A DNA stretch of 38,296 nt from a virus, in the IMG/VR virus record IMGVR_UViG_3300045136_000810, positions 1-38,296 of that record. The stretch is one strand, 5' to 3'. Under the pieces are notes generated by a model. It ran no database searches and was not told the DNA's origin. It saw only the letters and a program-made list of their open reading frames with translations. The position numbers were made by a program, and so were the translations under genes. The stretch's first letter is position 1; each line of letters begins with the position of its first letter. Of the stretch, positions 7,629-13,508 are shown one piece after another.

Positions 7629-8084
7629 ATGCCGAGTGTCCGGGTCTATCAGAAGAAGCAACTGCGGCTCGACCTGCTCAACTTCCGCCAGCGGCAGATG
7701 TATGAGCTGGGCGCGGCGGGCGTCGCGGCGGTCAAGGCGCGGCTCGCCGTGGCGCAGGGTCCAGAGGACTCGGCGGCCAAGCCGCTCACCAAGCGTTATG
7801 CGATCTGGAAGACGCGCAAAGGCAAGGGCAACCGCCGCAACCTGACCTTCTCGGGCGACCTGCTGCGCAACTTCCAGGTCCGCACGGTCAGCGAGAACCG
7901 GGCCAAGGCGAATGTCTCGACCCGCAAGGACCGGATCAAGGCCTGGGCCAATCAGAAGCGCGAGGCGTGGATGGTGTTTTCGCCGAAGAATGAGGCGGCG
8001 GTCGTGGAGGCAGCCCGGAAGATGCTCGAGGCGATGAAGCCAAGGCTGCTGGTCGAGCGCGTCCTGGGAGGGAAGCAGCGATGA
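7629..8084 (+). CDS. Tail completion / minor tail protein (gpZ-like)
   Basis: This is a 151-aa protein. I start it at the ATG at 7629 (MPSVRVYQKKQLRLDLLNF) because a G-rich ribosome site (GGGGGG) precedes it at the right distance. The same frame is open back to 7479, but those codons are the palindrome array. The family traits are an N-terminal helix, a SAAKPLTKRYAIWKTRKGKG basic loop, NLTFSGDLLRNFQVR and WMVFSPKNEAAVVEAARKML, as in phage proteins that complete the tail-head joint. Its position between the connector and tail terminator agrees. The sequence is very basic. It overlaps the next gene by ATGA. Confidence 0.7.
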   Translation: MPSVRVYQKKQLRLDLLNFRQRQMYELGAAGVAAVKARLAVAQGPEDSAAKPLTKRYAIWKTRKGKGNRRNLTFSGDLLRNFQVRTVSENRAKANVSTRKDRIKAWANQKREAWMVFSPKNEAAVVEAARKMLEAMKPRLLVERVLGGKQR

Positions 8085-8551
8085 TCAACCCGGCGGAACT
8101 GGTAGACAACCTGGTCGCTCTGCTGCGCGACATCCCGGAACTGGTCGCCGAAATGGGTGACCCGCAGCGGATCTTCGCCTACCACGACCAGTATCCGAAG
8201 CGCGCGAGCCTGGCGGCGGCGATCCACGACATGCCCGCGCCGGGGATCATGGCGGCCTGGCAGGGGACGAGCCCCGGGAGTTTCGGCGGCCTGGATGTCT
8301 GGCGGCACCAGGTGACTCTTTACCTGCGGGCGCGGGAGACATTTTCGGGCGACCCGCCCACCGCCTACTACTGGTTGTTCCGGCTCATTACCAAGGGCGT
8401 GCCGGCGTCGGCCGGAGTGCCGATGCTCAACGCCACCGTGCACCCGGCCTGCCACCCGATGGACCTGCCGCTCATCCAGCGGCAGACCGACGCCGAGGGG
8501 CTCGACTATTTCGAGGCGCCGCTCAGCTTTGCGGAGATGGGAGATGACTGA
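8081..8551 (+). CDS. Tail terminator protein (gpU-like)
   Basis: This 156-aa protein sits where lambda has U, between Z and the tail tube gene. It starts with an ATGA overlap and opens with a helix (NPAELVDNLVALLRDIPELV). An alpha/beta core follows, with RIFAYHDQYPKRASLAAAIH, VTLYLRARETF and YYWLFRLITKGVP. Tail terminators cap the finished tube and join it to the head. Sequence similarity to gpU itself is not obvious, so the call leans on size and gene order. Its last eight bases overlap the small gene that the RIT element has split. Confidence 0.65.
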   Translation: MINPAELVDNLVALLRDIPELVAEMGDPQRIFAYHDQYPKRASLAAAIHDMPAPGIMAAWQGTSPGSFGGLDVWRHQVTLYLRARETFSGDPPTAYYWLFRLITKGVPASAGVPMLNATVHPACHPMDLPLIQRQTDAEGLDYFEAPLSFAEMGDD

Positions 8552-8622
8552 GCAAGTGGTTCTAATCTCGCCTGATGGCGATGTGCGGCACGTCGAGGCG
8601 AGGCCGGAGGTCTTGGTCCCTC
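8544..8622 (+). pseudogene. 5' half of small phage gene split by the RIT-type element
   Basis: This begins at ATG 8544 with GGAG upstream, overlapping the tail terminator gene by 8 nt. It encodes MTEQVVLISPDGDVR and continues HVEARPEVLVPL before the element starts. In the present sequence the frame runs into the element's left end and stops at 8690, giving a useless 48-aa chimera. The 3' half lies at 12407-12511. Joined across the element, the gene would be about 59 codons. It resembles the 56-aa proteins encoded in both element ends (shared EVR.VEA.PEVL.PL pattern). The intact gene's role is unknown. It is one of the tiny genes often found just before the tail tube gene. Confidence 0.75.
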
Positions 8623-8623
8623 T

Positions 8624-8794
8624 TTATTCCGCATCCTTGATTATTCCGATCGCGGCCACGGGCTCACGACCCTCTGGAGCGGCTACTTGATGCCAGCCGG
8701 CGACTAAAAGCGGGATCAGGACCTCGGGATTGGCCTCGACTTCGCGAATCTCCCCGCCGTACGGAGCCTGCAAGAACACGCGATCAGTTGCCAT
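8624..8794 (-). CDS. 56-aa protein encoded in left inverted repeat, homologue of the split phage gene
   Basis: ATG at 8794-8792, TAA at 8626-8624. The product begins MATDRVFLQAPYGGEIREVE, goes on through PEVLIPLLVAGWHQV and ends GIIKDAE. It is the same length (56 aa) as the copy in the right repeat. Within its first half most of the 20 base differences from the right copy are silent or conservative, which is how a translated gene diverges. It is antisense to the late operon, so in the present orientation it is probably not expressed with the tail genes. AAGGA directly precedes the ATG. The function is unknown, but the family is that of the interrupted gene. Confidence 0.6.
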   Translation of the reverse strand: MATDRVFLQAPYGGEIREVEANPEVLIPLLVAGWHQVAAPEGREPVAAIGIIKDAE

Positions 8795-8887
8795 TCCTTG
8801 CCCTTCTCAACAGCAGCGGTCACCGGCAAACGCTCACTGAGAGTCCAAGCGGCGCAGCCTTCCGCTGTTGTCGCATTCGGAATAATC
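8624..8887. repeat. Left long inverted repeat of the RIT-type element
   Basis: Read on the minus strand, this segment matches the right end (12095-12379). The outer 84 bp (8624-8707) are identical to 12296-12379 inverted. The next 87 bp are about 77% identical. The innermost part is looser but still shows GCGCCGCTTGG, TTGCC and a perfect 14-bp end, CATTCGGAATAATC, at 8874-8887. The 8-mer TTATTCCG or its complement recurs several times and may be the recombinase core site. Confidence 0.8.
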
Positions 8888-8898
8888 CTGAGACCCTT

Positions 8899-8928
8899 CT
8901 CCTGTCAGCAGAAAGGAGCTGACTGGAG
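8899..8928 (+). promoter_or_regulatory. Hairpin covering the ribosome site of the first recombinase gene
   Basis: CTCCTGTCAGC (8899-8909) pairs with GCTGACTGGAG (8918-8928), ten pairs around one T-T mismatch, with the 8-base loop AGAAAGGA. The stem contains the GGAG nearest the ATG at 8931, and the loop and stem share the other candidate, AAAGGAG. Folding of the mRNA would hide the ribosome site, a common way to keep recombinase production low or to stop read-through expression from an outside promoter. The structure is seen in the sequence, and the regulatory effect is inferred. Confidence 0.5.
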
Positions 8929-8930
8929 AA

Positions 8931-10154
8931 ATGCTCGAAAACTACTTTCGCGATGAACTCGTTCTGTCACGCCTTCGCAATGGCCCGATGGCGCCGCACC
9001 TGCCGCACCTCATCCGTGCGATGGAGGAGCAGCAGTTCAAGCACCGCATCATTCGGCGTGCCATTCGCAGGGTGGATTCCCTTGGCTGTTGGCTCCAACA
9101 GCAGGGTGTCCCCTTGGCTGAGGCCGATGAATCTCACGTCAGGACGTTTGTGATGCAACGTTCCCGCACTTCCATAGGCCGCCTGGTCGCGTCCGGGATG
9201 ACTCGCATCGTCCCGATTCTGCAACAACAGGGAATCCTGATCGCACCGGAACCCCGCACGGAGGCGGATTGCTGGCTTCAGCGCTTCGATGAACATCTTG
9301 CTCGCGTGCATGGCGTCTGTGCAAAAGCTCGTTCCAACTACGTCAGATACGCGCGACGCTTCCTGGCCTTGCGCCCGGGAGGCGCACTGCCACCCTGGGC
9401 GAGCCTCGGCGCTGACGAGATTCAGGCATTCCTCCAGTCGGAGATGGAGAAGATGCAGCCCGGCCCGGGTCGTCGGCAACCAATGACAGCGATGCGCGCC
9501 ATGATCCGCTTCTTGGCGACGGAGGGCAGCCTCTCGCCCAATCTGGCCAAAGCGATTCCGGCCATGCGGGATTGGCAACATGCAACCTTGCCCAGGTACT
9601 TCACGCCGGAACAACTCGATGGCGTGCTCGCAGTTTGCCGGGCGCATGCCACCATCAGCCTGCGCGATCGCGCGATCGTGCTTCTGCTGGCGCGCCTCGG
9701 CATGCGGTCCGGCGAGGTGCGGCAGCTTCGACTGGAGGATGTCGACTGGACCGAAGGGGCGATTCACATCCGTTTGGGAAAAGCGCGCCACGAGCGTGTT
9801 CTGCCTCTGCCTGACGACGTGGGCGCCGCGCTGGTTGCCTATCTCCGCCGGGAGCGGCCGCCGAGTTCCTGCCGCACGATCTTCCTGCGTTCCTGCGCGC
9901 CCCACACGACCTTGAGCTCGATCGCCCGCATCGTTAAGCATGTCCTGCAACAGGCCGGCATTGCCGGTCCCGGCGTTGGGGCCCATCACCTCCGCCACAC
10001 CGTCGCCACGCACCTGGTCCGGCAAGGGGTTCCTTTCAAGGAGGTGGCCGACATCCTCGGGCACCGCAGCATCGAGACAACCGGCATCTACGCCAAACTC
10101 GACGTTCCGTCCCTTGCCGGCATCGCCTTGCCGTGGCCGGGAGGTGTGCAGTGA
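8931..10154 (+). CDS. ritA: Tyrosine recombinase, first of trio (RitA-like)
   Basis: This 407-aa site-specific recombinase has an N-terminal ~215 residues holding arm- and core-binding domains (SAM-like, with EADESHVRTFVMQRSRTSIG). The catalytic domain runs from ~220 to 400. The active site appears complete: Arg259 in ARLGMRSGEVRQL, Lys in LGKARHERVLPLP, His352-His356 box HHLRH with Arg355, His378 in DILGHRS, and nucleophile Tyr387 in TTGIYAKL. The start is the ATG at 8931, just after the hairpin. It overlaps the second recombinase by GTGA. The three proteins of RIT elements are thought to act together on the inverted repeats. The symbol is given by position in the trio. Confidence 0.88.
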   Translation: MLENYFRDELVLSRLRNGPMAPHLPHLIRAMEEQQFKHRIIRRAIRRVDSLGCWLQQQGVPLAEADESHVRTFVMQRSRTSIGRLVASGMTRIVPILQQQGILIAPEPRTEADCWLQRFDEHLARVHGVCAKARSNYVRYARRFLALRPGGALPPWASLGADEIQAFLQSEMEKMQPGPGRRQPMTAMRAMIRFLATEGSLSPNLAKAIPAMRDWQHATLPRYFTPEQLDGVLAVCRAHATISLRDRAIVLLLARLGMRSGEVRQLRLEDVDWTEGAIHIRLGKARHERVLPLPDDVGAALVAYLRRERPPSSCRTIFLRSCAPHTTLSSIARIVKHVLQQAGIAGPGVGAHHLRHTVATHLVRQGVPFKEVADILGHRSIETTGIYAKLDVPSLAGIALPWPGGVQ

Positions 10155-11098
10155 CGCCATCGCAATTGACTGCGCGGTTGGAATCCTATTTGTCGTTACG
10201 GCGTGCAATGGGCTTTCCCATGAAACTTGAGGAGTCCCAGTTGCGAGACTTCGTGGCATTCCTGACGGCCAACGCTGCCAACGGGCGCATCACGGCCCAA
10301 CTGGCCATCGAGTGGGCGTGTTCCTCGCCTTGTCGTGGGGCCTCCGCCCGTGCCGGGCGTCTCAATACGGCTCGCGGGCTGTTGCGGTATCTGAGCGCGT
10401 TCGCTCCCGATGTCGAGGTTCCGGAGGCCGGGCTGCTCGCCGGGGGGCGCCGGAACAAGCCGTACTTGTTTTCTCCGGCCGAGATCCAGCAGTTGCTGGA
10501 AGGCGCCTCCCGCTTGCATTCGCAGAGCGCGTTGTGGCCCCACACGGTCGCCACCGTGATTGGGCTCGTGGCCAGCACTGGACTACGTTCGAAGGAAGCG
10601 CTGAAACTGACCGTTGCCGATGTGCAACTGGATGTGGACCCGCCACGGCTGGTGATCCGCGGGGCGAAATTCCGCAAGTCCCGAATCGTACCGCTGCACG
10701 TCTCGACCGCCGCCAAGTTGCGTGAGTATGCCGATCAACGTTGCCGGTTGGGCTATGACGGGAGCGAAGCATTTTTCGTCTCCGAACACGGCAGGCAGGC
10801 GCGTTACGATCGCCTCCGGAAGTGCGTGCAGGAACTGGTGCGCGATCTGGGAATCCAGCCGCATCCGGGGAGCGGACGATATCCGGGACTGCACTGCCTA
10901 CGCCACACCTTTGCGGTTCAGCGCCTGCTTGCCTGGCAGGAACAGGGACTCGACGTGAAGGCGCTGCTCCCCCATTTGTCCGTCTACTTGGGCCACCACG
11001 ACCTTGTCGAAACCTACTGGTATTTGACGGCAACCCCAGCCCTGCTGACCGCTGCCGCGCAACGCTTCGCGAACTACGCCGGAACGGAGGTGCTGTGA
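10151..11098 (+). CDS. ritB: Tyrosine recombinase, second of trio (RitB-like)
   Basis: This is a 315-aa protein. I choose the GTG at 10151 (VTPSQLTARLESYLSLRRAM) because GGGAGG stands six bases before it and it gives a GTGA overlap with the first gene. An in-frame ATG 18 bases earlier lies inside that gene and has no ribosome site. Catalytic residues are Arg146 (STGLRSKEAL), His248 to His252 with Arg251 (HCLRH), His282 (LGHHDLVE) and Tyr291 in TYWYLT, nine residues after His282 as in its partners. Tyr289 lies close by, but the spacing favours 291. It belongs to a different subgroup from the other two, as usual for RIT trios. It overlaps the next gene by one base (TGATG). Confidence 0.87.
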   Translation: MTPSQLTARLESYLSLRRAMGFPMKLEESQLRDFVAFLTANAANGRITAQLAIEWACSSPCRGASARAGRLNTARGLLRYLSAFAPDVEVPEAGLLAGGRRNKPYLFSPAEIQQLLEGASRLHSQSALWPHTVATVIGLVASTGLRSKEALKLTVADVQLDVDPPRLVIRGAKFRKSRIVPLHVSTAAKLREYADQRCRLGYDGSEAFFVSEHGRQARYDRLRKCVQELVRDLGIQPHPGSGRYPGLHCLRHTFAVQRLLAWQEQGLDVKALLPHLSVYLGHHDLVETYWYLTATPALLTAAAQRFANYAGTEVL

Positions 11099-12096
11099 TG
11101 ACCGCATCCGCATCTCTCGCTCCCGTGTTGCAGTTCTTCTTTACCGAGCATTTGTCCTCGCATAAGCAGGCCAGTCCACGGACTGTTCTCGCTTACCGGG
11201 ATGCGTTCCGTCTTCTGCTTCAGTTTGTCCAGGCCAAGACCGGCAAACCGCCATCGAGCCTGTGCGTGCAAGATCTGGATGCTCCCGTCATCCTGGCGTT
11301 TCTGGATAGCCTTGAGCAGCATAGGAACAACACGGTCCTGTCGCGCAACGCCCGGCTGGCCGCGATCCGCTCCTTCTTCCGCGTGGTCGCCCTGCGCGAT
11401 CCCGCCAGCGTCGGTGTGGTGACGCGTGTGCTCGCCATTCCCATCAAGCGGACAGACAAGCGCCTGGTGGGCTATCTGACGCGCGAGGAGATGGACGCTG
11501 TGCTGGCCGCCCAGGACCAATCCCAATGGTTGGGCAGACGGGATTACGCCTTGCTGCTCACCATGTATAACAGCGGCGCGCGCCTCTCTGAAATCACTTC
11601 CCTCCGGCGGCACCACGTAATTTTTGGTCCGACCACGTATCTGCAACTGAAGGGCAAGGGACGCAAAGAAAGAGACGTTCCGCTGTGGACGAAGACAAGT
11701 CGTGTCCTCCAGCAATGGTTTCGCGGCCTGGAAAGCAGTCCAACGGATATCGCCTTTCCCACCATACGAGGAACACCACTCTCGGCAGACGCTGTGCACC
11801 ACCTCTTGAGTCAGGCGGTGAAACGGGCGGCCCCGGTATGCCCTACACTGGCCGCCAAACGAGTCACGCCTCATGTTCTCCGCCACACCACGGCCATGCA
11901 TCTCATGCAAGCCGGAATCGACATGGCGGTGATTGCTCTCTGGCTCGGACACGAAAGCATCGAGACCACACACAAGTACGTAGAGGCGGATCTTGCGATC
12001 AAGGAACGCGCCCTGGAGCGAATCGCACCCAAAGACCAGAAAGCCCGCCGATTCAAAGCCGACGACAAGCTGATGGCGTTCCTGTCGTCGATCTGA
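11098..12096 (+). CDS. ritC: Tyrosine recombinase, third of trio (RitC-like)
   Basis: This 332-aa recombinase starts at ATG 11098, overlapping the stop of the second gene, with GGAGG upstream. The N-terminal domain has FFTEHLSSHKQASPRTVLAY, typical of core-binding domains. The catalytic set is Arg162 (NSGARLSEI), Lys in LKGKGRKERDVPL, His259 to His263 with Arg262 (HVLRH), His285 (WLGHES) and Tyr294 (THKYVEAD). The stop codon merges with the inner edge of the right inverted repeat (GATTATTCCGAATG from 12095). It resembles the XerD-like recombinases that form the third member of RIT trios. All key residues are present, so the element may be active. Confidence 0.88.
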   Translation: MTASASLAPVLQFFFTEHLSSHKQASPRTVLAYRDAFRLLLQFVQAKTGKPPSSLCVQDLDAPVILAFLDSLEQHRNNTVLSRNARLAAIRSFFRVVALRDPASVGVVTRVLAIPIKRTDKRLVGYLTREEMDAVLAAQDQSQWLGRRDYALLLTMYNSGARLSEITSLRRHHVIFGPTTYLQLKGKGRKERDVPLWTKTSRVLQQWFRGLESSPTDIAFPTIRGTPLSADAVHHLLSQAVKRAAPVCPTLAAKRVTPHVLRHTTAMHLMQAGIDMAVIALWLGHESIETTHKYVEADLAIKERALERIAPKDQKARRFKADDKLMAFLSSI

Positions 12097-12122
12097 TTAT
12101 TCCGAATGTGCCAACTGCAGGA

Positions 12123-12156
12123 GGCAAGCGCCGCTTGGGCGTCCGCGGCGCTTGCC
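12123..12156 (+). terminator. Strong GC hairpin after the recombinase trio
   Basis: GGCAAGCGCCGC (12123-12134) and GCGGCGCTTGCC (12145-12156) form a perfect 12-bp stem with a 10-base loop. It lies 27 bases after the stop of the third recombinase. There is no T-run behind it, so it is a poor intrinsic terminator by itself. It could slow transcription, protect mRNA ends or take part in recombination. The left repeat has only a weaker counterpart. Confidence 0.35.
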
Positions 12157-12208
12157 ACAGGAGCGAGGCTGATCATATCTTTCGAACTCGAAATCGAAGG
12201 CAATGGAA

Positions 12209-12379
12209 ATGGCCGCTGATCGTGTGTATTTACAGGCTCCATACGAAGGAGAGGTCCGAGAGGTCGAAGCTACACCCGAGGTCCTGATCCCACTCTTAGT
12301 CGCCGGCTGGCATCAAGTAGCCGCTCCAGAGGGTCGTGAGCCCGTGGCCGCGATCGGAATAATCAAGGATGCGGAATAA
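12209..12379 (+). CDS. 56-aa protein encoded in right inverted repeat, homologue of the split phage gene
   Basis: ATG 12209, TAA 12377-12379. The product begins MAADRVYLQAPYEGEVREVE, followed by PEVLIPLLVAGWHQV and an acidic end. It lies in the late-operon direction, directly ahead of the tail tube gene, the very slot the split gene used to fill. It has the same length as its left counterpart and about three fewer residues than the rebuilt phage gene. GAAGG precedes the ATG by about ten bases. It could stand in for the lost product. The family's function is unknown to me, so complementation is an inference from homology, orientation and position. Confidence 0.65.
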   Translation: MAADRVYLQAPYEGEVREVEATPEVLIPLLVAGWHQVAAPEGREPVAAIGIIKDAE

Positions 12380-12380
12380 T

Positions 12381-12410
12381 GCGGCTTATTCCGAATGCGG
12401 AATAAACCGC
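12381..12410. repeat. Hairpin at right junction of the element
   Basis: GCGG and CCGC flank TTATTCCG (12386-12393) and CGGAATAA (12398-12405) around the 4-base loop AATG, with one mismatch. It repeats the element's end sequence in both orientations just outside the right inverted repeat. It may be the true terminal structure of the element or the remains of an older end. Confidence 0.5.
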
Positions 12411-12511
12411 TGATGGTCCGTGGCTACCGGCAACTGACAGAGCACGAGGAAGAGGAGGTAACGCCTGATGTCCGTCACGCGGATGCAGGAAATCCAGATC
12501 TGCTTCGGTAA
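12407..12511 (+). pseudogene. 3' half of small phage gene split by the RIT-type element
   Basis: Read from CCG at 12407, the frame gives PLMVRGYRQLTEHEEEEV and sixteen further residues before TAA at 12509-12511. PLMVRGYRQ lines up with PLLVAGWHQV in the element's own 56-aa proteins, and the left half at 8544-8622 ends at the same PL. The original gene therefore overlapped the tail tube gene by 44 nt. This fragment has no start of its own in a useful place. Confidence 0.65.
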
Positions 12512-13508
12512 GCAGAAGCAGGCCGACATCTCTACGCCCAACACTGGCGTCCAGATGTGGCAGTTGCGCAAACTCAATGCCGCGCTCGCCAATCCGAAGC
12601 TCAACACCGAAAACGACGCCGAAGAATTCGGCAAGGGCCACGAGTTCCCGACGCAGTCCTTCCAGACTTCCTGGGACGTGAACGGCACGCTCGAAAAGTA
12701 TCTGAGCGCGGAGATCGGCGCCTGGGCGATGGCTTTCGGCCTCGGAAAGGTCGTGAAGTCGGGCACGGCGCCCAACTTCACCTACACCTGTACGCCGCTG
12801 TTTCCGGCTTCTGGCGATGCGGCCGAGTTGCCCTACTTCTCCTTCGTCGAGCAGATCCGTCCGGGCGCAGGCGTCGTCGTCGACCGGATGGCCGTGGGCT
12901 GCGTGGTCGAAGGCTGGACCATCTCGATCGGCTCGGGACCAGGCCGCGCCAACTCGAAGATCGCGGTCGAACTCGTGGGCTCGGGCAAGTACGTTGAGCC
13001 GTCGGGCATCACCGTGCCCGCGGCGACAGTAGAGAAGCTTCTGCCTTCGGCGTCGCTCGCGCTCACGATCAACGGCGTCAACTACGTCTCGAACAAGAAC
13101 ATCGTTTCGCTCGAGACTTCGTGGAAGAACAACGTCCGCCTCGACGGCGGCTTCTATCCCGGCTCCGGCTTCCAGACTCCTGGCGACGGCGCAAGCGGCG
13201 CCATTCGCGGCCGGCTCGAGTTTGGCAACCGCCAGGGGACGCTCCGCTTTGTCGCCCGCTTCGAAAACGGCTCGACCGAACTCACGAAGCTCCGCCAGCA
13301 AACGACGGGCACGGCGGTGCTGGCGCTCACCTACGACACGAACAACTCGCTCGAGATTACCTGGCACAAGGTCTCCTTCGCCTCGGCCGAAGTCGGCGAG
13401 ACCGACGGAATCGTCACCGTTTCGGTCGACTGCCTGCCGATGTGGGATGACACGAACGGCATCGTCTCGGCCCTGGCCAAGTGCGGCGTGGACGGGATCT
13501 GCCAGTAG
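12468..13508 (+). CDS. Major tail tube protein
   Basis: This 346-aa protein forms the stacked rings of the non-contractile tail. It has the plan of the siphophage tube family: an N-terminal loop arm (SVTRMQEIQICFGKQKQADI), then a beta-rich core. NPKLNTENDAEEFGKGHEF is followed by WDVNGTLEKYLSAEIGAWAM. The second half repeats a similar beta fold (LALTINGVNYVSNKNIVSLE, then GGFYPGSGFQTPGDGASGAI). It ends in the immunoglobulin-like stretch LEITWHKVSFASAEVGE. AGAGGAGG stands about ten bases before the ATG. The RIT element ends only ~60 bp upstream, leaving this ribosome site intact. Confidence 0.85.
   Translation: MSVTRMQEIQICFGKQKQADISTPNTGVQMWQLRKLNAALANPKLNTENDAEEFGKGHEFPTQSFQTSWDVNGTLEKYLSAEIGAWAMAFGLGKVVKSGTAPNFTYTCTPLFPASGDAAELPYFSFVEQIRPGAGVVVDRMAVGCVVEGWTISIGSGPGRANSKIAVELVGSGKYVEPSGITVPAATVEKLLPSASLALTINGVNYVSNKNIVSLETSWKNNVRLDGGFYPGSGFQTPGDGASGAIRGRLEFGNRQGTLRFVARFENGSTELTKLRQQTTGTAVLALTYDTNNSLEITWHKVSFASAEVGETDGIVTVSVDCLPMWDDTNGIVSALAKCGVDGICQ

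Follow-up and report, generated by a model that had tools for sequence, protein, structure and literature searches.

A RIT-type tyrosine recombinase element that splits a small phage tail-operon gene and carries a homologue of that gene in each of its ends

In IMG/VR virus record IMGVR_UViG_3300045136_000810, whose 38,296 nucleotides form the window analyzed here, a small gene between the tail terminator and tail tube genes is interrupted by a three-recombinase element of the RIT type, and both inverted-repeat arms of this element encode a homologue of the broken gene (Table 1). The explanation that we favor, with a probability of roughly 0.7, is a RIT that targets V-P-L codons and holds a replacement copy of its target in both ends. 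The element would integrate at the V-P-L codons of the small gene, cutting the protein within its helix, while each terminal inverted repeat would bring a complete, diverged, outward-reading copy. Because there is such a copy in each arm, a replacement would read along the late operon, just 5' of the tail tube gene, in either orientation. Judging from sequence, this operon-sense copy is probably expressed late and could complement the lost product, which would keep insertion cheap and allow the element to persist in phages.

Table 1. Features of the element and its surroundings in the window.
Feature	Position	Strand	Basis or remark
Tail-terminator-position gene, 156 aa, upstream neighbor	8081..8551	+	name from synteny
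Small gene, 5' part (MTEQVVLISPDGDVRHVEARPEVLVPL), including left 6-bp spacer CCCTCT (8618-8623)	8544..8623	+	intact homologues L010/L012/L022
Inverted-repeat arms, 177 nt, 88% complementary	8619-8795 / 12208-12384		
Main RIT element, 3756 bp, terminal motif TTATTCCGCATCC...GGATGCGGAATAA	8624..12379	.	junctions from comparison with phage 2 and its empty site
Left-arm ORF, 56 aa, outward-reading	8624..8794	-	
Inner inverted end motif (ATTCGGAATAAT), 5' of ritA	8875..8886	.	equivalent position in other RITs
RitA tyrosine recombinase, 407 aa	8931..10154	+	PF00589, E 2e-34
RitB tyrosine recombinase, ~315 aa (GTG start read from sequence)	10151..11098	+	PF00589, E 1e-16
RitC tyrosine recombinase, 332 aa	11098..12096	+	PF00589, E 2e-29; tree
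Inner inverted end motif (GATTATTCCGAAT) at ritC stop	12095..12107	.	
Right-arm ORF, 56 aa, outward-reading; this is the operon-sense copy in the window	12209..12379	+	
Internal 6-bp spacer TGCGGC (reverse complement GCCGCA)	12380..12385	.	
20-bp palindrome TTATTCCGAATGCGGAATAA, two end motifs back-to-back	12386..12405	.	equivalents beside other RITs
Small gene, 3' remnant, with right 6-bp spacer ACCGCT (12406-12411); overlaps tail tube start	12406..12511	+	
Tail tube gene, 346 aa, intact downstream neighbor	12468..13508	+	PF18906, E 2e-11

A first-pass annotation of this DNA had given the element as 8544-12511. That interval corresponds to the whole interrupted gene, while the main element is only the part from 8624 to 12379 and is followed in turn by a 6-bp spacer (12380-12385), the 20-bp palindrome, and a second 6-bp spacer (12406-12411). 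The three recombinase genes point the same way and, as read from the sequence, overlap briefly at about 10151-10154 and 11098. By tblastn, they match the trios of plasmid RITs in the same gene order (34-46% for RitA, 39-46% for RitB, and 40-61% for RitC), and the motif layout and palindrome are likewise those of plasmid RITs, with the repeats lengthened by the gene. In each arm ORF, the stop codon is the final 3 nt of the element, and the last codons together with the stop are formed by the element's own end sequence. Predicted promoters and terminators were no more numerous than in shuffled sequence.

The broken gene belongs to a conserved phage family of ~56-60 aa. As the first-pass annotation had proposed from the letters alone, the element splits a gene lying between tail terminator and tail tube: once rebuilt, this gene resembles the intact genes at the equivalent position in related phages. 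The upstream neighbor, whose product has no match in Pfam or PHROG, precedes the small gene in 77 related contigs as well, and a full-length member of the family is retained in 77/77 related contigs with both neighbors in view. The small protein has a predicted b-b-a-b fold in a confident model (pLDDT 83-95 for residues 1-40), and the element cuts between an invariant proline and the leucine that follows it, within the single helix. Searches with the family (40 members) against Pfam and PHROG gave no match, and comparison of the model with PDB and viral structures gave nothing significant (best E 1.1 and 0.03). Other insertions occur near this gene in related phages. At L019:3620-4280, a ~660-bp insert lies directly 5' of an intact small gene and contains an ORF that resembles an HNH endonuclease in sequence motif; this insertion and another in L067 are unrelated to the element and leave the small gene intact.

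The native small gene and the start of the tail tube gene share 44 nt, and in the window the ribosome-binding region of the tube gene survives along with the 3' remnant. An arm ORF might on these grounds act mainly in translation, its role being to deliver ribosomes to the start of the tail tube gene and not to provide a protein. We regard this as very improbable, as any ORF would serve such a role, yet the homology is conserved at the protein level together with the invariant residues, and the tube gene has a strong Shine-Dalgarno sequence of its own, read from sequence.

To evaluate this homology, we trained an HMM on the native genes of related phages only (16 sequences), leaving out the arm sequences. 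The right and left arm ORFs score 60.5 and 56.2 bits, respectively. The two halves of the split gene reach 41.5 (5') and 65.6 bits (3'), compared to 5.6 bits for the next ORF of the window and 13.7 bits for the best of 2000 shuffled arm peptides. The claim that each inverted repeat encodes a 56-aa protein of the same family is borne out by these scores, and the absence of profile similarity to the split gene that would have contradicted it is not observed; a chance resemblance is ruled out by the native-only HMM and the shuffles. All family-invariant residues are present in the arms (40-row alignment). A search of the INPHARED phages with the arm peptide gave matches at chance level only.

Identity between the arm protein and the small protein that it would replace is ~45%, and the arm protein has a C-terminal tail of its own. 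That a protein so diverged is nonetheless under selection, and that the broken gene is always the native one, is what would be expected if the arm ORFs served to modify or block the phage, with a diverged tail-operon protein altering tail assembly or excluding competitors and with the break in the native gene ensuring that the element's version alone is made. The arms, however, keep every invariant residue of the family, and one copy is always in the native operon position, as simple replacement expects, leaving this alternative unlikely in our estimation.

The reading we prefer, replacement by the arm copies, is supported by two further carriers. In phage 2 (IMGVR_UViG_3300045902_000776), whose backbone is 86-90% identical to that of the window, the same codons are occupied by an element 98.7% identical to the window's, which runs the other way with respect to the late operon. 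Three element-free contigs (L052/L054/L057) match the flanks of phage 2 at 100% over 2167 nt on one side and at 99.98% over up to 4372 nt on the other, and show a clean empty site, CTCGTGCCGCTTATGG, where the filled site of phage 2 reads GCCGCT-element-AGCGGC-palindrome-GCCGCT. Near-identical copies in both orientations in two phages, together with this near-isogenic empty site, are comparative evidence that the element is mobile. From the empty site, it is also seen that the 20-bp palindrome arrived together with the element. The third carrier, L130, is a contig of a Terriglobia (Acidobacteriota) genome with a RitC that is 84% identical and with both arm ORFs present; its element splits the same small gene in another phage, against the operon. 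Three carriers are known, two of which have nearly identical elements, and the carrier contigs could be dead phages or prophages. A search of IMG/VR for the IIKDAE-end pattern matched phage 2 only, ~400 class-level and 100 related genomes yielded L130 alone, and L130 was the sole match above 55% in a phylum-level RitC search.

In 3/3 cases, the insertion site is the V-P-L codons of the small gene. The L130 spacers are ACCGCT, AGCGGG, and ACCGCT, and all spacers, including the internal one when read backwards, match the target V-P-L codons or differ from them by one base. This fit suggests that the element has resided repeatedly in the small gene and that the main element may invert between its inverted spacers.

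With both arm ORFs reading outward and both orientations found among the carriers, the earlier proposal that one copy lies along the late operon whichever way the element is inserted holds, as does the proposal that the right copy lies where the lost gene was: insertion always leaves one copy in the native operon position. Besides the arm copies, we found no full-length member of the family when the window and the phage 2 contig were searched for an extra intact small gene. Retention of the gene in 77/77 contigs and its supply by the arms alone in the window and phage 2 are what rescue predicts, although they fall short of proving function.

Among the matches listed, we count 92 RITs with a whole trio, the window included, and the ORF is found in only three of these; ORF-bearing RITs inserted in other genes may lie beyond the listed matches. 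The remaining 89 lack it, and none of them is inserted in the small gene. In the three that carry it, both repeats have the ORF, and the same gene is occupied at the same codons, with both orientations represented; the ORF-less elements, which in unrelated genes might have spoken against the pairing of ORF and target, have RitC identities of 63% or less and so are more distant. In the RitC tree, the three ORF-bearing elements group as a single clade (100/99 support). Their nearest sister, L144 (RitC 63%), shares the TTATTCCG end motif with them, and its palindrome is the same as the one in phage 2; its left end is an ordinary one of 80 bp without the gene. The distance from the end to the recombinase gene is about 290-340 bp in the ORF-bearing elements, compared to mostly 80-150 bp in ordinary RITs. 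With the ORF confined to one clade and its sister lacking it, the gene was most simply gained once, within the element ends.

Several features of other RITs were observed in the course of this comparison. Many RITs (L086-L089, L144, and 12386-12405 of the window) have such a 20-bp palindrome of back-to-back motifs next to one end, with a 6-bp spacer in between, and the palindrome seems to travel with them. In the phage-like contig L104 (290-1350 and 4495-5980), the RIT is bordered on either side by the 5' part of a gene that we take to be of a DUF3489-like family, cut at GWQPHTVRG-type codons within an inverted duplication of 74-77% identity, and the final codons (SHYADVRIMPM) are provided by the RIT end. 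The internal spacer of the window (12380-12385), which reads GCCGCA when reversed, fits the DUF3489 site beside L104 and also fits the small-gene site with one base different; it may be a trace of an earlier host gene. Two Granulicella RITs, L143 (1364-2850 and 6151-7667) and L141, are enclosed by inverted duplications that measure about 1.3-1.4 kb and contain, on each side, an inward-reading ArdC-like gene (named from sequence), and in L143 the palindrome is present on both sides of the RIT.

Duplication at RIT ends therefore occurs without rescue, as the RITs of L104, L143, and L141 sit within long, gene-bearing inverted duplications. By extension, the small gene could have been captured by chance in an imprecise event, with the ORFs persisting because the arms are needed as recombination DNA and with the carriers being defective. 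Substitutions in the arms argue otherwise. The left and right arms of the window differ by 14 synonymous and 6 nonsynonymous changes, and the right arm differs from that of L130 by 23 and 16, respectively. Outside the end motif (codons 1-47), 15/20 changes between the window arms and 24/36 between the right arm and L130 are at third positions (Fisher p 7e-6 and 8e-8), and in the more diverged comparisons the arm ORF dN/dS is 0.11-0.2. By this measure, the arm ORFs are under strong purifying selection. The left and right arms are unrelated in their 60-90 nt of non-coding sequence, and this is so even for L130, whose two ORFs agree at 170/171 positions; consequently, the unit kept alike between the ends is the ORF plus the end. 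Moreover, repeats of ~30 bp suffice for other RITs, and the same gene is the target in three cases. Chance capture is thus a doubtful alternative.

A transposon in a phage structural gene is expected to be lethal to the phage and hence to itself, and the present element would be one escape from this, as its gene is carried in both terminal repeats and orientation is irrelevant. We lean toward regarding it as a self-rescuing transposable element, in which a RIT lineage has specialized on a conserved tail-operon gene; insertion would be near-neutral in either orientation, and the element, as a benign parasite that replaces the gene it breaks, could therefore spread in populations of phages. For RITs, previously without known cargo or use, it provides a clue to function, and it offers a route to testing whether an uncharacterized small gene retained in 77/77 of the phages examined is essential.

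Prophages and ICEs are known that restore the end of their target, including e14 in icd, SXT in prfC, and tRNA integrators. These likewise use a tyrosine recombinase and keep the target's function, but they rebuild one end of a gene, whereas here a separate whole gene is carried. In the synthetic rescue homing drives HomeR and ClvR, a gene is disrupted and a diverged rescue copy carried. They are engineered nuclease drives of animals rather than a natural phage recombinase element, and the analogy is functional only; the element described here would be a testable natural counterpart to them. RIT elements have been described as overlapping ritA-B-C tyrosine recombinase genes on one strand, ~3.5 kb in length, with end repeats and a palindrome (Van Houdt et al. 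2012, PMC3414803; PMC10214605), and have been defined as cargo-free with repeats of 28-34 bp (PMC3414803; PMC10214605); the 2012 survey table contains no phage-encoded RIT proteins and a few in prophages (PMC3414803). The present element has the same trio, size, repeats, and palindrome, but each of its arms is ~177 bp long and contains a gene. In Vibrio cholerae, a genomic island inserted in recA brings a divergent recA with it (Rapa et al. 2014, PMC4405046), and gene replacement via one carried copy is therefore already known. Like that island, the element occupies a fixed site inside a conserved gene and carries a full-length, diverged homologue. The island, however, is large and brings one replacement copy of a bacterial housekeeping gene, whereas the element is 3.8 kb with two outward-reading end copies and sits in a phage structural operon, where both orientations occur. 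In the open-access literature searched, we found neither a RIT with a gene in its repeats nor any element whose terminal repeats both contain a replacement gene, and relative to that literature, the copies in both ends, the predicted capacity to work in either orientation, and the setting in a phage structural operon are new.
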